DNA of 41,768 nucleotides from Thermodesulfobacteriales bacterium. Its GTDB lineage: Bacteria; Desulfobacterota; Thermodesulfobacteria; Thermodesulfobacteriales; Thermodesulfatatoraceae. Positions 100-10,798 of the stretch are shown in pieces (position 1 is the stretch's first letter; every line of letters begins with the position of its first letter). Under the pieces are notes generated by a model, which was not told the origin of the DNA, ran no database searches, and saw only the letters and a program-made list of their open reading frames with translations. The DNA lies in contig JALSPG010000063.1 in assembly GCA_026986115.1 (NCBI GenBank), forward strand, positions 1 through 41,768, in the 5' to 3' direction. The translations under genes and the position numbers were made by a program.

Positions 100-1122
100 T
101 TAGAGAAATTTTTCTGCTAAAATTTCGGCAATTTGAACGGCGTTGGTAGCTGCTCCTTTACGGAGATTATCTGCTACTACCCAAAGATTGAGACCATTGG
201 GGATAGATTCATCTTCTCGAATTCGTCCCACAAAGACTTCGTCTTTGCCCGCAATTTCGATCTGGAGGGGATATCTCTTCTCTTCCGGTTCATCGATTAC
301 TATTACTCCAGGAAAGGCTGCTAAGAGTTCGCGGGCCTTTTGCACGGAGATTTTTTCTTCTGTCTCGATATTTACTGCTTCGGCATGTCCATAAAAGACT
401 GGTACACGCACCGTCGTCGCAGTTACACCGATATTTTCGTCTTCCATAATTTTTTTGGTTTCATTGACCATCTTCATTTCTTCTTTTGTGTAGCCGTTAT
501 CCAAAAAAACGTCTATATGAGGAAGGCAATTGAAGGCTATTTGATAAGAGAAGACTTTGGGTTTAGGGATGGTTTTCCCTTGGCACCAGGCTTGGGTTTG
601 ATCCATAAGTTCTTGAATCGCTTTTTGCCCAGCTCCAGAAACCGCCTGATAAGTAGAAACGACCACCCGTTTAATACGGCTATAATCATAAAGGGGCTTT
701 AAGGCTACCACCATTTGAATAGTGGAACAGTTGGGATTAGCGATAATGCCTTTGTTTTTATAGCCTGCTACCGCATGAGGATTTACTTCTGGGACAATCA
801 GGGGTACTTCTGGATCCATCCTCCAAGCACTGGAATTATCTATCACCACCGCTCCGTCAGCGGCGAATTTAGGGGCAAATTCAAGGCTTCGCGAGGCCCC
901 AGCTGAAAAAAGGGCAATGTCAATCCCGGAAAACGACTTTTGTTCAGAAAGAACTTCCACTTCTATTTCTTCACCTTTAAAGGGAATTTTTACTCCTCGA
1001 GAGCGTTCCGAAGCGAAAAGGTGTAACTCTTTGACAGGAAAATCTCTCTCTTCTAGAATTTGAATCATCATGCGTCCTACGGCCCCGGTAGCCCCCACCA
1101 CGGCTACTACGAATTCTTTCAT
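100..1122 (-). CDS. asd: Aspartate-semialdehyde dehydrogenase
   Basis: VAVVGATGAVGRMMIQILEERDFPV and the active-site region IIANPNCSTIQMVVALKPL. Confidence 0.97.
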   Translation of the reverse strand: MKEFVVAVVGATGAVGRMMIQILEERDFPVKELHLFASERSRGVKIPFKGEEIEVEVLSEQKSFSGIDIALFSAGASRSLEFAPKFAADGAVVIDNSSAWRMDPEVPLIVPEVNPHAVAGYKNKGIIANPNCSTIQMVVALKPLYDYSRIKRVVVSTYQAVSGAGQKAIQELMDQTQAWCQGKTIPKPKVFSYQIAFNCLPHIDVFLDNGYTKEEMKMVNETKKIMEDENIGVTATTVRVPVFYGHAEAVNIETEEKISVQKARELLAAFPGVIVIDEPEEKRYPLQIEIAGKDEVFVGRIREDESIPNGLNLWVVADNLRKGAATNAVQIAEILAEKFL

Positions 1123-1136
1123 GACTAAACCCCCTT

Positions 1137-1334
1137 TTAAGTTAGGCGGTCACAACGCATTAGAGCGAGTAATCTCTCAAGTTCTGGCGTTATTTCTTCC
1201 CAATAATCTCGTAGATCAAAATCTTCTCTACAGCTCTCACACCGGAGAGCAATTTTCCTTCAGGTGCGCCAGAGCCGAAGTTCTTTCTTGCAATGTCGAC
1301 AATAAAGCCCCACTTTTTGATTAAAGACAAACAT
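1137..1334 (-). CDS. Candidate dual-CXXC small selenoprotein (in-frame TGA at codon 25) or nonsense-mutated zinc-ribbon ORF
   Basis: Manual minus-strand translation: MFVFNQKVGLYCRHCKKELRLWRT[TGA]RKIALRCESCREDFDLRDYWEEITPELERLLALMRCDRLT*. CxxC pairs lie on both sides of a single TGA (1262-1260). Located just upstream of asd. Confidence 0.6.
1233..1250 (-). promoter_or_regulatory. Candidate bacterial SECIS hairpin
   Basis: GCTCTC-CGGTGT-GAGAGC on the minus strand: perfect 6-bp stem, 6-nt loop containing GGU. Loop begins 15 nt after the in-frame TGA. Confidence 0.5.
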
Positions 1335-1375: not shown

Positions 1376-1406
1376 AAGAAAAGGCGCGCCTTTGAGCGCG
1401 CCCGCG
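1376..1406 (-). terminator. Rho-independent terminator-like hairpin, minus orientation
   Basis: Minus strand GGCGCGC-TCAAAG-GCGCGCC followed by TTTTCTTT. No recognisable minus-strand gene immediately upstream. Confidence 0.6.
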
Positions 1407-1621: not shown

Positions 1622-1831
1622 ATGCAGTGTCAGAGACTCAAAAGACTAGCAAGAGATTGGTACCAAAAAGTCAAAGAGGATGCCCTTGCCCCAGCGCGGA
1701 TGATGGAGCTCATTAAGCGTCATGTAGAGCATTGTGCAGTGTGTCAGACAGATCCAGATCTCCCGGAAGAACTCGAAAAAATTCGGGAGTTTATCAGGGC
1801 CCCTCAGCCATTGGTCCCTCCCTCCGAATAA
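1622..1831 (+). CDS. Small conserved-looking Cys-containing protein (CAVC motif), unknown function
   Basis: 69 aa, MQCQRLKRLARDWYQKVKEDALAPARMMELIKRHVEHCAVCQTDPDLPEELEKI; ends shortly before the response regulator gene. Confidence 0.65.
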   Translation: MQCQRLKRLARDWYQKVKEDALAPARMMELIKRHVEHCAVCQTDPDLPEELEKIREFIRAPQPLVPPSE

Positions 1832-1895
1832 TAACACTTTAATTTTTGTGTTTTTTAATATTTTTTTAAATAAATTTTTCCTAATCAGAGGGGAA

Positions 1896-6350: not shown

Positions 6351-7371
6351 GGTAGCGGTCTCTGGGATAAACGCCGTGGACAATCCGGGGCCGGGACTGG
6401 GCATCATCAAGGGACTACGGGAGGGAAAGACTCCGGTATCCATCGTGGGGCTGGCCTACGACGCCATGGAACCGGGCGTTTACCTTACGGAACTCATAGA
6501 TCGGGCCTATCTCATGCCCTACCCCTCCGAGGGCGAGGAACCCTTCCTGAATCGCTTCCTTTACATCAAGGAACGGGAGGGCCTGGAGGTAGTCATCCCG
6601 ACTCTCGACGCGGAGCTTCCCCTTTTCATAGATCTGGCTCCGCAACTAGCCTCCTACGGCCTCAAGACCTTTCTTCCCACTCGGGAACAGTTCCGACTGC
6701 GGGCAAAAGACCGTCTGCCAGGGGTGGCTGAGGCTATGGGTATAAAGATTCCAACTACCTTGTCGGTCTCTTCCTACGAGGAACTGGGCCGTGCTCTTTC
6801 CGAACTTCGGTTTCCGGTGATGGTCAAGGGACTCTTTTACAAAGCCCTGCGGGCCTATACCGAGGCCGAGGCCAGGCAGCACTTCCAGACCATCGCCGCG
6901 GAATGGGGCTACCCCGTGATCCTTCAAGAGGTGGTGGAGGGCGAGGAAATGAATGTGGTGGGCGTGGGAGACGGGGAGGGCGGCCACTTCGGTCTCCTGG
7001 CCATCAAAAAGCTCTGGATCACCTCCCTCGGGAAAATCTGGACTGGGGTTACGGTAACCCATCCGGGACTTCTAACCGCCGCGGAGGAATTCGTGCGACA
7101 CTTTCGCTGGCGAGGAGCCTTCGAGCTCGAGACCATCGTTTCCGGAGAGGACATTTACCTCATCGAGATCAATCCCCGCTTTCCGGCCTGGGTGTACTTC
7201 GCCGTGGGAGTGGGGATAAACCTTCCGGAAAGACTGCTCCGGGCCGCCCTGGGGCAGGAACCCGAGAGAGACTGGGAATATCCCGCGGGAAAGCTCTACA
7301 TCCGCTTCACCGACGATCTGGTAACGGATCTAGAGATATTTCAGCACATGGTCACCAGGGGGGAAAGATGA
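6343..7371 (+). CDS. ATP-grasp superfamily ligase (CarB-like)
   Basis: MIKVAVSGINAVDNPGPGLGIIKGL; FPVMVKG; VILQEVVEGEEMNV; IYLIEINPRFPAW. Overlaps the PqqD-like gene. Confidence 0.88.
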   Translation: MIKVAVSGINAVDNPGPGLGIIKGLREGKTPVSIVGLAYDAMEPGVYLTELIDRAYLMPYPSEGEEPFLNRFLYIKEREGLEVVIPTLDAELPLFIDLAPQLASYGLKTFLPTREQFRLRAKDRLPGVAEAMGIKIPTTLSVSSYEELGRALSELRFPVMVKGLFYKALRAYTEAEARQHFQTIAAEWGYPVILQEVVEGEEMNVVGVGDGEGGHFGLLAIKKLWITSLGKIWTGVTVTHPGLLTAAEEFVRHFRWRGAFELETIVSGEDIYLIEINPRFPAWVYFAVGVGINLPERLLRAALGQEPERDWEYPAGKLYIRFTDDLVTDLEIFQHMVTRGER

Positions 7372-8708
7372 AAAGAACTTATCAGAAACCCACCATCGTC
7401 AAACTCCAGGTCGGTCTCCTACGGGACAAAAAAAGCAGTCTTTCCCGGCTCCTGCGACGGGAGATCGACGGAGTGCCGGTAAGAGATCTGGTGGAACGAT
7501 TCGGGTCTCCGCTCTTCGTCTTTTCCGAAAGAAGACTGCGTCAGCAGTTTCGGTACCTGAAAAGACTCTTCGAGGGATACTATCCCCGGGTGGAATTCAG
7601 CTGGTCTTACAAGACCAACTATCTGGACGCCATCTGCCGCATCTTTCACCAGGAGGGGGCCAGCGCGGAGGTGGTTTCGGACTTCGAATACGAAAAAGCT
7701 CGAAGGCTGGGGATGTCCGGAGACCGGATCGTTTTCAACGGACCTTACAAGCCCAAAGAAATCCTGCGCAAAGCGGTGGAGGAGGGAGCCCGCATAAATG
7801 CGGATTCCCTGGACGAGATCCTGGATCTGGAGGAAATCGCCCGGGAGACGGAGAAAAAGATCCGCATCGGTCTCCGGGTGAACATGGACACCGGGATTTA
7901 TCCCCGATGGGATCGGTTCGGTTTCAACCTGGAGTCCGGCGAGGTGCTCAATGTGGCCCGGAGGATCGCCGCCGGAGGCCGGCTCGAGGTGGTGGGCCTT
8001 CACTGTCATCAGGGCACCTTCATCCTGGAGCCGGAGGCTTACGGTCGGGCCGCGGAAAAGCTGGTGCGTCTCGCCCGCAGGCTGGAGGAAGAGTTCGGCT
8101 GGACCATCGAGTATCTGGATCTGGGCGGGGGTTTTCCCTCCCGCAACCGTCTAAAGGGACTCTACCTTCCTCCGGAGGTGGCGGTGCCACCGCTTTCGGA
8201 ATACGCGGAGCGGATCGGCCGGGCTCTTCTGGCCTCTCTCCCCCCGGGAGACTACCCCCTCCTGATCCTGGAGACCGGAAGGGCCCTGGTGGACGAGGCC
8301 GGCTTTCTCATCACCACCGTGCGGGTCTGCAAGCGTCTTCCGGATGGCCGGCGGGCCTATGTGCTCGACGCGGGAGTGAACCTGCTCTTCACCTCCTTCT
8401 GGTACCACTTCCGGGTGGAAATAGAGAAAGAGGTGGCCGGTCCCCCGGAGCCCTGCGTGCTCTACGGCCCCCTGTGCATGAACATAGATGTGGTGGAGGA
8501 AAACGCCCTACTCCCTCCCCTTTCCCGGGGCACCAGGCTGATCCTGTCCCCAGTGGGAGCCTACAATGTGACCCAGTGGATGCAGTTCATCACCTACCGA
8601 CCCCGGGTGGTCCTCGTTACCGAGGAGGGAAGGGTTGAGGTGATCCGCGAGGCCGAAACCCTGGAGGACATCGTAGCCCGGGAAAGGATACCCGAACACC
8701 TGCGATGA
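7368..8708 (+). CDS. Fold-type III PLP-dependent decarboxylase (diaminopimelate/ornithine decarboxylase-like)
   Basis: GSPLFVFSERRLRQQFR, YSWSYKTNY-type Lys region (FSWSYKTNYLDAI), VVGLHCHQGTF, EYLDLGGGFPS, ILETGRALV. Start at 7368 overlaps the ATP-grasp stop (ATGA). Confidence 0.9.
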   Translation: MKRTYQKPTIVKLQVGLLRDKKSSLSRLLRREIDGVPVRDLVERFGSPLFVFSERRLRQQFRYLKRLFEGYYPRVEFSWSYKTNYLDAICRIFHQEGASAEVVSDFEYEKARRLGMSGDRIVFNGPYKPKEILRKAVEEGARINADSLDEILDLEEIARETEKKIRIGLRVNMDTGIYPRWDRFGFNLESGEVLNVARRIAAGGRLEVVGLHCHQGTFILEPEAYGRAAEKLVRLARRLEEEFGWTIEYLDLGGGFPSRNRLKGLYLPPEVAVPPLSEYAERIGRALLASLPPGDYPLLILETGRALVDEAGFLITTVRVCKRLPDGRRAYVLDAGVNLLFTSFWYHFRVEIEKEVAGPPEPCVLYGPLCMNIDVVEENALLPPLSRGTRLILSPVGAYNVTQWMQFITYRPRVVLVTEEGRVEVIREAETLEDIVARERIPEHLR

Positions 8709-10798
8709 GAGACTTAAGGCCCGTCGCAAACTCCATCCTGAACAGTTACTCCGGGGTGCTCTTTTTCTCCCGCCCGGCCGGAGGACTGGCCATCCTGCTT
8801 TTCACCCTGGTCCTCAATCCCAATCTGGGGCTTTCCGCCCTGGTCTGCCTGCTCTCCGCCTACCTCTGCGCCCGCCTCCTGGGCCTTAAGGAAGACTTTC
8901 TGCGACTGGACTTCTACATATACAACCCCCTGCTGGTGGGGCTCTCCATAGGCTACTTCTTCCGGCTCGACCTCCTGAGTCTCCTCTTCCTGGTGCTCAT
9001 GGGTGTCTTCACCTTCTTTCTGACCTACGGCCTTTCCTCGGCCTTCTCTTACTACCTCAGACTTCCTGTGCTGAGCCTTCCCTTCGTGATCGGAAGTCTC
9101 ATCGCCACCCTGGCCTCCTACCACTACTCCAACCTGTTCGTAAAGGCCCTTTACGCCCGCAAACTCTTCCTTTTCACCTCCCTTCCCCTGTGGCTTGACG
9201 GCTTCCTTAGGGCCCTGGGAGCGGTGTTTTTCATGCCCCATCCCCTGGTGGGACTGGGACTCTTTCTGGTGCTTCTTCTGGCCTCTCGTATCCTGGCCCT
9301 TCTCGCTCTGACGGGGTATCTGGCCGGAAGCCTCCTGGTCTACCTCTTCACCGGATCCTCCGCGGAGGCCTTTTCCAACCTCGCCCACTTCAACTTTATC
9401 CTCATCGCCATGGCCCTGGGCGGGGTCTTCCTGATTCCCTCACCCAGGAGCTACCTCCTGGCGCTCATCGCCTCCGCCATGGCCGTCCCCCTCACCGAGG
9501 CCTCCCGGGCCTTCTGGGAAAGGTTCGGTCTTCCGGCCTTTGCCCTGCCCTTCAATCTAACCACCCTGCTGGTGCTGTACGCGCTGGGGGTCTCGGGATA
9601 CCGTCGTCTCACCGGTTATTATCGTGGAACCCCGGAAAGCACCCTGGATCACTACCTGACCTGGGAGAAACGGTTTCCCTCCACGGCCTGGGAAGTGGAG
9701 CTTCCGGTGAGCGGTCGCTGGACGGTGTGGCAGGGGCCTGACGGACAGTTCACCCACAAGGGGCCCTGGCGATACGCCCTCGATTTCGTGATTACCGACG
9801 AGGAGGGACGCACCCACGGCGGAGACGGAACGCGCCTTGAGGACTACTACGCCTACCGCAAGCCCGTTCTCTCCCCGGTGAGCGGGCGCGTGGTGGAGGT
9901 GGTGGACGGTCTCCCGGACGAGCCTCCGGGCTCGGCCAACCGCGAACAGCCCTGGGGCAACTATGTGGTCATCCACGACCAGCGGGGTTTTTACGCGGTG
10001 CTGGCCCACCTGAGCCCGGGCACCGTAAAGGTAAAGAAGGGGGACTGGGTGGTGAAGGGAGCCCTCGTAGGGCTTTGCGGAAGTTCCGGCTATTCTCCGG
10101 AACCGCATCTCCACCTCCACCTTCAAACCGGGCCGGAGCTGGGGTCTCCCACCATTCCCTTTCTCTTCAGCGGTTATCTCAGGAACGGAGAGTTTCACGC
10201 CCTTTCCCTTCCCGCCGAAGGGGAAACGGTGGAACCCGCCCTCCCGGAAAAACGGCTCAAACAGAGCCTCAACCTTCTTCTGGGGCAAAAATTCACCTAC
10301 GAGGTGCAGGGGGAGGGAGGCTCCGGGGAAATCCTCCACCTGGAGGTAAAGATGGCCCCTGACGGGACCTTTTACCTCACCGACGGAAAGGCGCGTCTTT
10401 ACTTCGCCCAGCGGGGGGCGGCCTTCTGTTTCCTGAATTACGAGGGGACGAACCGTTCCCCCCTGCGCTGGTTCTTCCTGGCCGCCCCCAGGATCCCCCT
10501 GAACCTCCGCCCGGGGATCTCCTGGTCCGACCACCTTCCGCTGGAAATCCTGCTGCCTCCCCTCAAAAAAGGGCTGTATCTCTTCCTGATTTCCTTCTGG
10601 CCCTCTTTTTTGCGTCTGGAGGCCCGCTATCAGGCCCTGGGAAGATTTGACTTCCGCGGAAGGATTATCTTTAGTGATTACGAGGTGGAAACCGCCGTAA
10701 AAATCCATCCCCTGGCGGGGTTTGAGGAAGTGGTTATCCGGAGAAAAGGACGAACCCTGAGACTTAGACGGAGGGAAAACGATGAGGAGAATGCTTAG
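8705..10798 (+). CDS. Urea-transporter-like membrane domain fused to M23 (LytM) peptidase domain
   Basis: N-terminus SGVLFFSRPAGGLAILLFTLVLNPNLGL...YNPLLVGLSIGYFF; C-terminal half WRYALDFVITDEEG...SPVSGRVVEVVDG...WGNYVVIHDQRGFYAVLAHLSPGTVKVKKGDWV...GLCGSSGYSPEPHLHLHLQ. Confidence 0.88.
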   Translation: MRDLRPVANSILNSYSGVLFFSRPAGGLAILLFTLVLNPNLGLSALVCLLSAYLCARLLGLKEDFLRLDFYIYNPLLVGLSIGYFFRLDLLSLLFLVLMGVFTFFLTYGLSSAFSYYLRLPVLSLPFVIGSLIATLASYHYSNLFVKALYARKLFLFTSLPLWLDGFLRALGAVFFMPHPLVGLGLFLVLLLASRILALLALTGYLAGSLLVYLFTGSSAEAFSNLAHFNFILIAMALGGVFLIPSPRSYLLALIASAMAVPLTEASRAFWERFGLPAFALPFNLTTLLVLYALGVSGYRRLTGYYRGTPESTLDHYLTWEKRFPSTAWEVELPVSGRWTVWQGPDGQFTHKGPWRYALDFVITDEEGRTHGGDGTRLEDYYAYRKPVLSPVSGRVVEVVDGLPDEPPGSANREQPWGNYVVIHDQRGFYAVLAHLSPGTVKVKKGDWVVKGALVGLCGSSGYSPEPHLHLHLQTGPELGSPTIPFLFSGYLRNGEFHALSLPAEGETVEPALPEKRLKQSLNLLLGQKFTYEVQGEGGSGEILHLEVKMAPDGTFYLTDGKARLYFAQRGAAFCFLNYEGTNRSPLRWFFLAAPRIPLNLRPGISWSDHLPLEILLPPLKKGLYLFLISFWPSFLRLEARYQALGRFDFRGRIIFSDYEVETAVKIHPLAGFEEVVIRRKGRTLRLRRRENDEENA

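Follow-up and report, generated by a model that had tools for sequence, protein, structure and literature searches.

Small bacterial proteins with two CXXC motifs that occur in Cys and Sec forms are covered by the NCBIfam model NF041197 (CxxC_Se_CxxC), named 'dual CXXC motif small (seleno)protein'. A 2026 review enters this model twice, once as OS_HP3, with an RxU motif, and once as hypothetical protein DW, with a GxU motif (PMC13188914). A literature search for a tested function of the family returned none. Weak structural likenesses, none of them significant, lie with the zinc ribbons found in small subunits of RNA polymerase and in TFIIS, and with ZifS (TTHA0897), all of which display a ribbon with an exposed hairpin turn. 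However, these proteins are without Sec. TFIIS carries an acidic pair at the tip of its hairpin, and this has no counterpart in the protein described here.

The window, that is the whole stretch of 41,768 nucleotides analysed here, holds a minus-strand gene whose product, we are highly confident, is a selenoprotein of 65 residues that belongs to the NF041197 family and is of the OS_HP3 (RxU) type. Its main features, as predicted from the nucleotide sequence, are:

1137..1334, minus strand: gene for a 65-aa dual-CXXC zinc-ribbon selenoprotein, with ATG at 1334-1332 and stop codon TAA at 1139-1137
1290..1301, minus strand: first CxxC (C12-C15), half of the predicted zinc site, invariant in 57 sequences
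1260..1262, minus strand: TGA codon 25, read as selenocysteine; a TGA or Cys codon stands here in all homologues read
1230..1241, minus strand: second CxxC (C32-C35), the other half of the predicted zinc site, invariant in 57 sequences

Retranslation of the minus-strand frame 1334-1140 gave 65 residues with a single in-frame TGA at codon 25, between C12xxC15 and C32xxC35, in exact agreement with the frame and coordinates of the original prediction. With TGA as U (1334-1137, minus) the translation reads MFVFNQKVGLYCRHCKKELRLWRTURKIALRCESCREDFDLRDYWEEITPELERLLALMRCDRLT*. Against NF041197 (cut-off 40) this protein reaches 57.8 bits, with residues 12-64 aligned to model positions 1-53, which identifies the 'recognised bacterial family' mentioned when the frame was first noticed. 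R23-T24-U25 corresponds to the RxU motif of the OS_HP3 form and the gene fits that branch of the family: U lies between the two CxxC motifs, homologues carry Cys at the same column, and nothing essential differs. The SECIS register is near in the window (loop 15 nt after the UGA), whereas in most of the distant NF041197 members it is further away (loop about 23 nt). The family is already on record at NCBI and in selenoproteome publications, the window gene being an added member, and the NCBI pipeline, which now includes a model for it, should be able to call the gene.

The frame is absent from a standard ORF list and a strong Shine-Dalgarno is missing at its start, both of which would suit a decaying gene in which the TGA is a true stop within a broken zinc-ribbon gene, or joins unrelated fragments. 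We searched 60 related genomes with the window protein and found matches running through the TGA in 6/7 genomes of the same genus, in 1/2 of the same family and in more distant genomes. The best match (G001) showed 71% identity at an E-value of 2.7e-31, with others ranging down to 40% and below. Exactly one in-frame TGA lay within each of the matches in G001, G003-G007, G009 and G010. In every TGA-containing relative read the TGA fell at the homologous codon, and all seven close relatives with a match (G001, G003-G007, G009) share it. Because matches with one TGA at the homologous codon run through the relatives, the observation is not due to chance. Moreover, the protein-like character first remarked on either side of the TGA is borne out, as the homologue matches pass through it with a CxxC on each side.

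Extending this with the NF041197 profile to 395 genomes of the phylum yielded 112 genomes with a match; the majority of the matches contained one TGA and some contained none. Codon 25 is TGA, TGC or TGT in every homologue read. An unrelated sense codon at this position, which the original prediction had named as the mark of a nonsense mutation, was looked for in these homologues and did not occur. In an alignment of 57 homologues the C12, C15, U/C25, C32 and C35 columns are invariant, and L19 and D62 nearly so; R23 is present in 33/45 Sec forms and 12/12 Cys forms, and R/K26 in 40/45 Sec forms. A nonsense mutation would have to account for a TGA that seven close relatives and members of dozens of genera share, in a protein conserved on both sides of it and with Cys the only alternative codon seen. 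We regard a nonsense mutation or pseudogene as ruled out by the conservation of the TGA across the phylum, its probability being negligible. Judged by this conservation, the frame is read through the TGA.

The start of the gene had been called uncertain for want of a well-placed Shine-Dalgarno. Indeed, none lies 5-10 nt ahead of the ATG, so this part of the observation stands. The doubt about the start itself is eased: the alignment places a Met of the close relatives at this position, in several cases with a strong Shine-Dalgarno, and therefore the ATG at 1334-1332 is probably the correct start. Close upstream of it we find TTGGCA-N17-TATAAC, a near-consensus candidate promoter, which was not listed by a promoter scan that demanded T as the last base of the -10 box. 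This candidate promoter could give a near-leaderless transcript of the selenoprotein gene, and such a message could explain the absent Shine-Dalgarno. One more element lies just upstream of the gene:

1382..1403, minus strand: terminator-like stem-loop upstream of the selenoprotein gene, by consensus match only

This stem-loop suggests that transcription may start afresh at the selenoprotein gene.

A frame that is read through its TGA need not contain Sec, and an ordinary amino acid (Trp or Cys) might be inserted instead, through codon reassignment or near-cognate readthrough. The inserted residue is beyond the reach of computation, and the existence of Cys homologues lends this reading some support. 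The genome holding the window (1.83 Mb, 96.8% complete), however, encodes dedicated machinery for Sec. We detected selA (559.7 bits), selB (392 bits), selD (378 bits) and a tRNA-Sec (82.9 bits by Rfam) whose anticodon is UCA by ARAGORN. Thus the search for selA, selB, selC and selD, whose joint absence was to have counted against a selenoprotein, recovered all four. Moreover, several homologues terminate with their own TGA, which argues that TGA has not simply been reassigned. Among the 112 gene-bearing genomes, SelA is found in all but G045 (79% complete) and G081 (67% complete). This co-occurrence is a weak test, since SelA is present in 360/395 genomes of the phylum. As a separate observation, the selD gene of the window's genome (L039, G000:C103:8531-9454) has one in-frame TGA of its own, and its product is probably a selenoprotein itself.

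Further evidence against an ordinary residue comes from the RNA downstream of the UGA:

1233..1250, minus strand: SECIS-type hairpin GCUCUC-CGGUGU-GAGAGC, recognised by its fold, by a conserved register with paired changes and, for the class, by synonymous controls

The stem of this hairpin begins 9 nt, and its loop 15 nt, after the UGA; the loop and 3′ arm overlap the codons for R31 to S34, part of the second CxxC. The fold energy is -9.0 kcal/mol for a 42-nt stretch, or -7.8 for the hairpin alone. The published bSECIS model asks for a loop of 3-9 nt with G in the first two positions, a stem of 4-16 bp, a distance of 16-37 nt from the UGA and an MFE of at most -7.5 kcal/mol (PMC13188914). The bSECIS check proposed at the outset, made here by these published values, found a fitting hairpin 3′ of the TGA, with the loop CGGUGU, a 6-bp stem and an energy within the limit. 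Its spacing is borderline: the 6-nt loop lies 15 nt from the UGA, and the distance becomes 16 nt once the inner C-G pair of the loop is included, which the N1-N2 pair of the model permits.

In the window and seven relatives, 95.8% of stem cells are paired compared with at most 58% when the register is slid, and the stem pairs covary, one pair having changed on both sides. Across the wider family, screening three fixed registers showed a hairpin in 60/65 TGA genes compared with 2/27 Cys genes; these registers were chosen after inspecting folds, which favours the TGA set, and the energy test is independent of them. In that test, the TGA genes of two subfamilies had stronger hairpins than their synonymous-codon randomisations, which preserve the encoded protein, with mean energies of -9.3 vs -4.2 and -8.7 vs -3.2 kcal/mol. 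The Cys genes showed no excess (-2.6 vs -2.7 kcal/mol). Fisher p values were 1.7e-20 and 3.7e-10 for the two TGA subfamilies and 0.92 for the Cys genes, figures that ignore relatedness and are therefore overstated. Taken alone, the window hairpin is marginal against its synonymous controls (p 0.07), and so its support comes from the class of TGA genes. The Sec/Cys comparison thereby acts as a built-in test, with hairpins in the TGA genes and none in the Cys genes. An ordinary residue at codon 25 is very improbable in light of these data, and we infer that residue 25 is Sec, given the sel genes, the hairpin and the existence of Cys homologues.

Gene context offers a less consistent picture. The immediate downstream neighbour is:

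100..1122, minus strand: asd, aspartate-semialdehyde dehydrogenase (Pfam Semialdhyde_dh and Semialdhyde_dhC), directly downstream of the selenoprotein gene and kept as its neighbour within the taxonomic family

This gene starts at 1122, on the same strand and separated by 14 bases. It follows the selenoprotein gene in the window and in 6/6 same-family relatives whose loci were compared, and in those six a recN-like gene comes after asd (by reading; only the asd of the window was profile-tested). Outside the taxonomic family the selenoprotein gene lies near fabD-like or truA-like genes, as read without profiles, and no neighbour is conserved there among the loci compared. An assignment of function from gene context was dropped, as asd is a neighbour only within the family, other genes take its place elsewhere and there is no consistent partner. 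Elsewhere in the window, a 69-aa frame at 1623-1832 (+), MQCQRLKRLARDWYQKVKED...HCAVCQTD..., lies between the selenoprotein gene and a response-regulator-like gene and has no Pfam family above cut-off. A single protein at 8705-10798 (+) combines urea transporter and peptidase M23 domains. A 434-codon open frame at 7334-8638 (+) shares its reading frame with this urea-transporter ORF, a TGA at 8636 lying between the two; having no Pfam match and overlapping a decarboxylase gene in another frame, it is probably an overlap artefact.

We then turn to what the protein might do. An AlphaFold model of moderate confidence (pLDDT 79, pTM 0.57) has strands at 18-23 and 28-32 and helices at 41-47 and 50-57; residue 25 falls in the turn that joins the strands. 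The two CxxC knuckles are linked by a beta-hairpin, as in a zinc ribbon, and Pfam Zn_ribbon_6 matches at 22.8 bits, just below its cut-off of 25. We therefore predict a one-zinc ribbon with C12, C15, C32 and C35 as ligands and a C-terminal helical tail. In the usual zinc-ribbon geometry the hairpin turn points away from the zinc; with residue 25 in that turn, Sec25 is thus probably held away from the metal.

Such a fold raises the possibility that this same selenoprotein is mainly a structural or nucleic-acid-binding ribbon, associated with RNA polymerase or the ribosome, in which Sec is a redox switch and not catalytic. Its weak likeness to the RNA polymerase small-subunit and TFIIS ribbons and to ZifS, together with housekeeping neighbours such as asd, would be in keeping with this. 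However, a fold search of the PDB with both models gave no significant match, the best E-values being 0.18-0.36 and all above 0.1, and a profile search for function returned generic zinc ribbons only. Furthermore, only U or C occurs at column 25, and Sec is usually retained for catalytic redox work. A mainly structural role is consequently rather unlikely in our estimation, and on balance we lean towards a small thiol/selenol redox protein acting as a redox effector.

During translation, SelB bound to the hairpin just 3′ of UGA codon 25 would deliver Sec-tRNA-Sec, and the ribosome would insert selenocysteine at the UGA instead of stopping. Sec25 would then sit in the beta-hairpin turn between the CxxC knuckles, beside the basic residues R23 and R26. 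Under the favoured redox-effector reading, its exposed selenolate may attack or reduce oxidised sulfur or metal species. Alternatively, Sec25 might bind a partner protein through a reversible selenenylsulfide. Cys61 is a possible resolving thiol, albeit not a universal one; it is found in only 30/45 Sec forms, and a role as the obligatory resolving thiol is unsupported. Together, the invariant C-C-U-C-C pattern, a hairpin turn that bears Sec and basic R-x-U-R surroundings provide a concrete, testable hypothesis for a very small redox protein, and the gene is a securely supported addition to a small selenoprotein family of thermophilic anaerobes.

A second set of small TGA zinc-ribbon genes, with a GxU motif (A2, L112-L131), is present in G003, G004, G005, G007, G010, G012, G013, G015, G016, G020 and other genomes. 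TGA occurs in 18/20 of the GxU genes read and Cys in the other two; among aligned members, 18/18 match NF041197 at E <= 0.01, 16 of them with TGA and 2 with Cys. The set shares the C-C-U-C-C spacing and the NF041197 model with the window family. It differs in having GxU in place of RxU, conserved GG, V, Y and E residues and a long C-terminal helix, in being without the (R/P)xDR(L/I) tail, and in partly using another hairpin register. These genes probably correspond to hypothetical protein DW of PMC13188914, as judged by the GxU motif only. No GxU gene was found in the window's own assembly, though sister genomes have one.

Considering both sets, we tentatively suggest that a selenol at the tip of a zinc-ribbon hairpin, set apart from the metal site and lacking the customary UxxC/CxxU resolving partner, might represent a distinct redox architecture. 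Two paralogous small proteins, one RxU and one GxU, would share it, with their SECIS hairpins in different registers. This idea is doubtful at present.

The surroundings of the GxU gene, with all names assigned by eye, vary between lineages. At four loci (L113, L118, L126, L127) it lies on the opposite strand beside genes resembling a dsr electron-transfer complex, namely NrfD-like, ferredoxin, haem c and DsrK-like genes, plus a HEAT-repeat gene. In the f3 genomes it precedes an apparent dnaX-ybaB-recR; genomes of the window's genus have it after an apparent topA.
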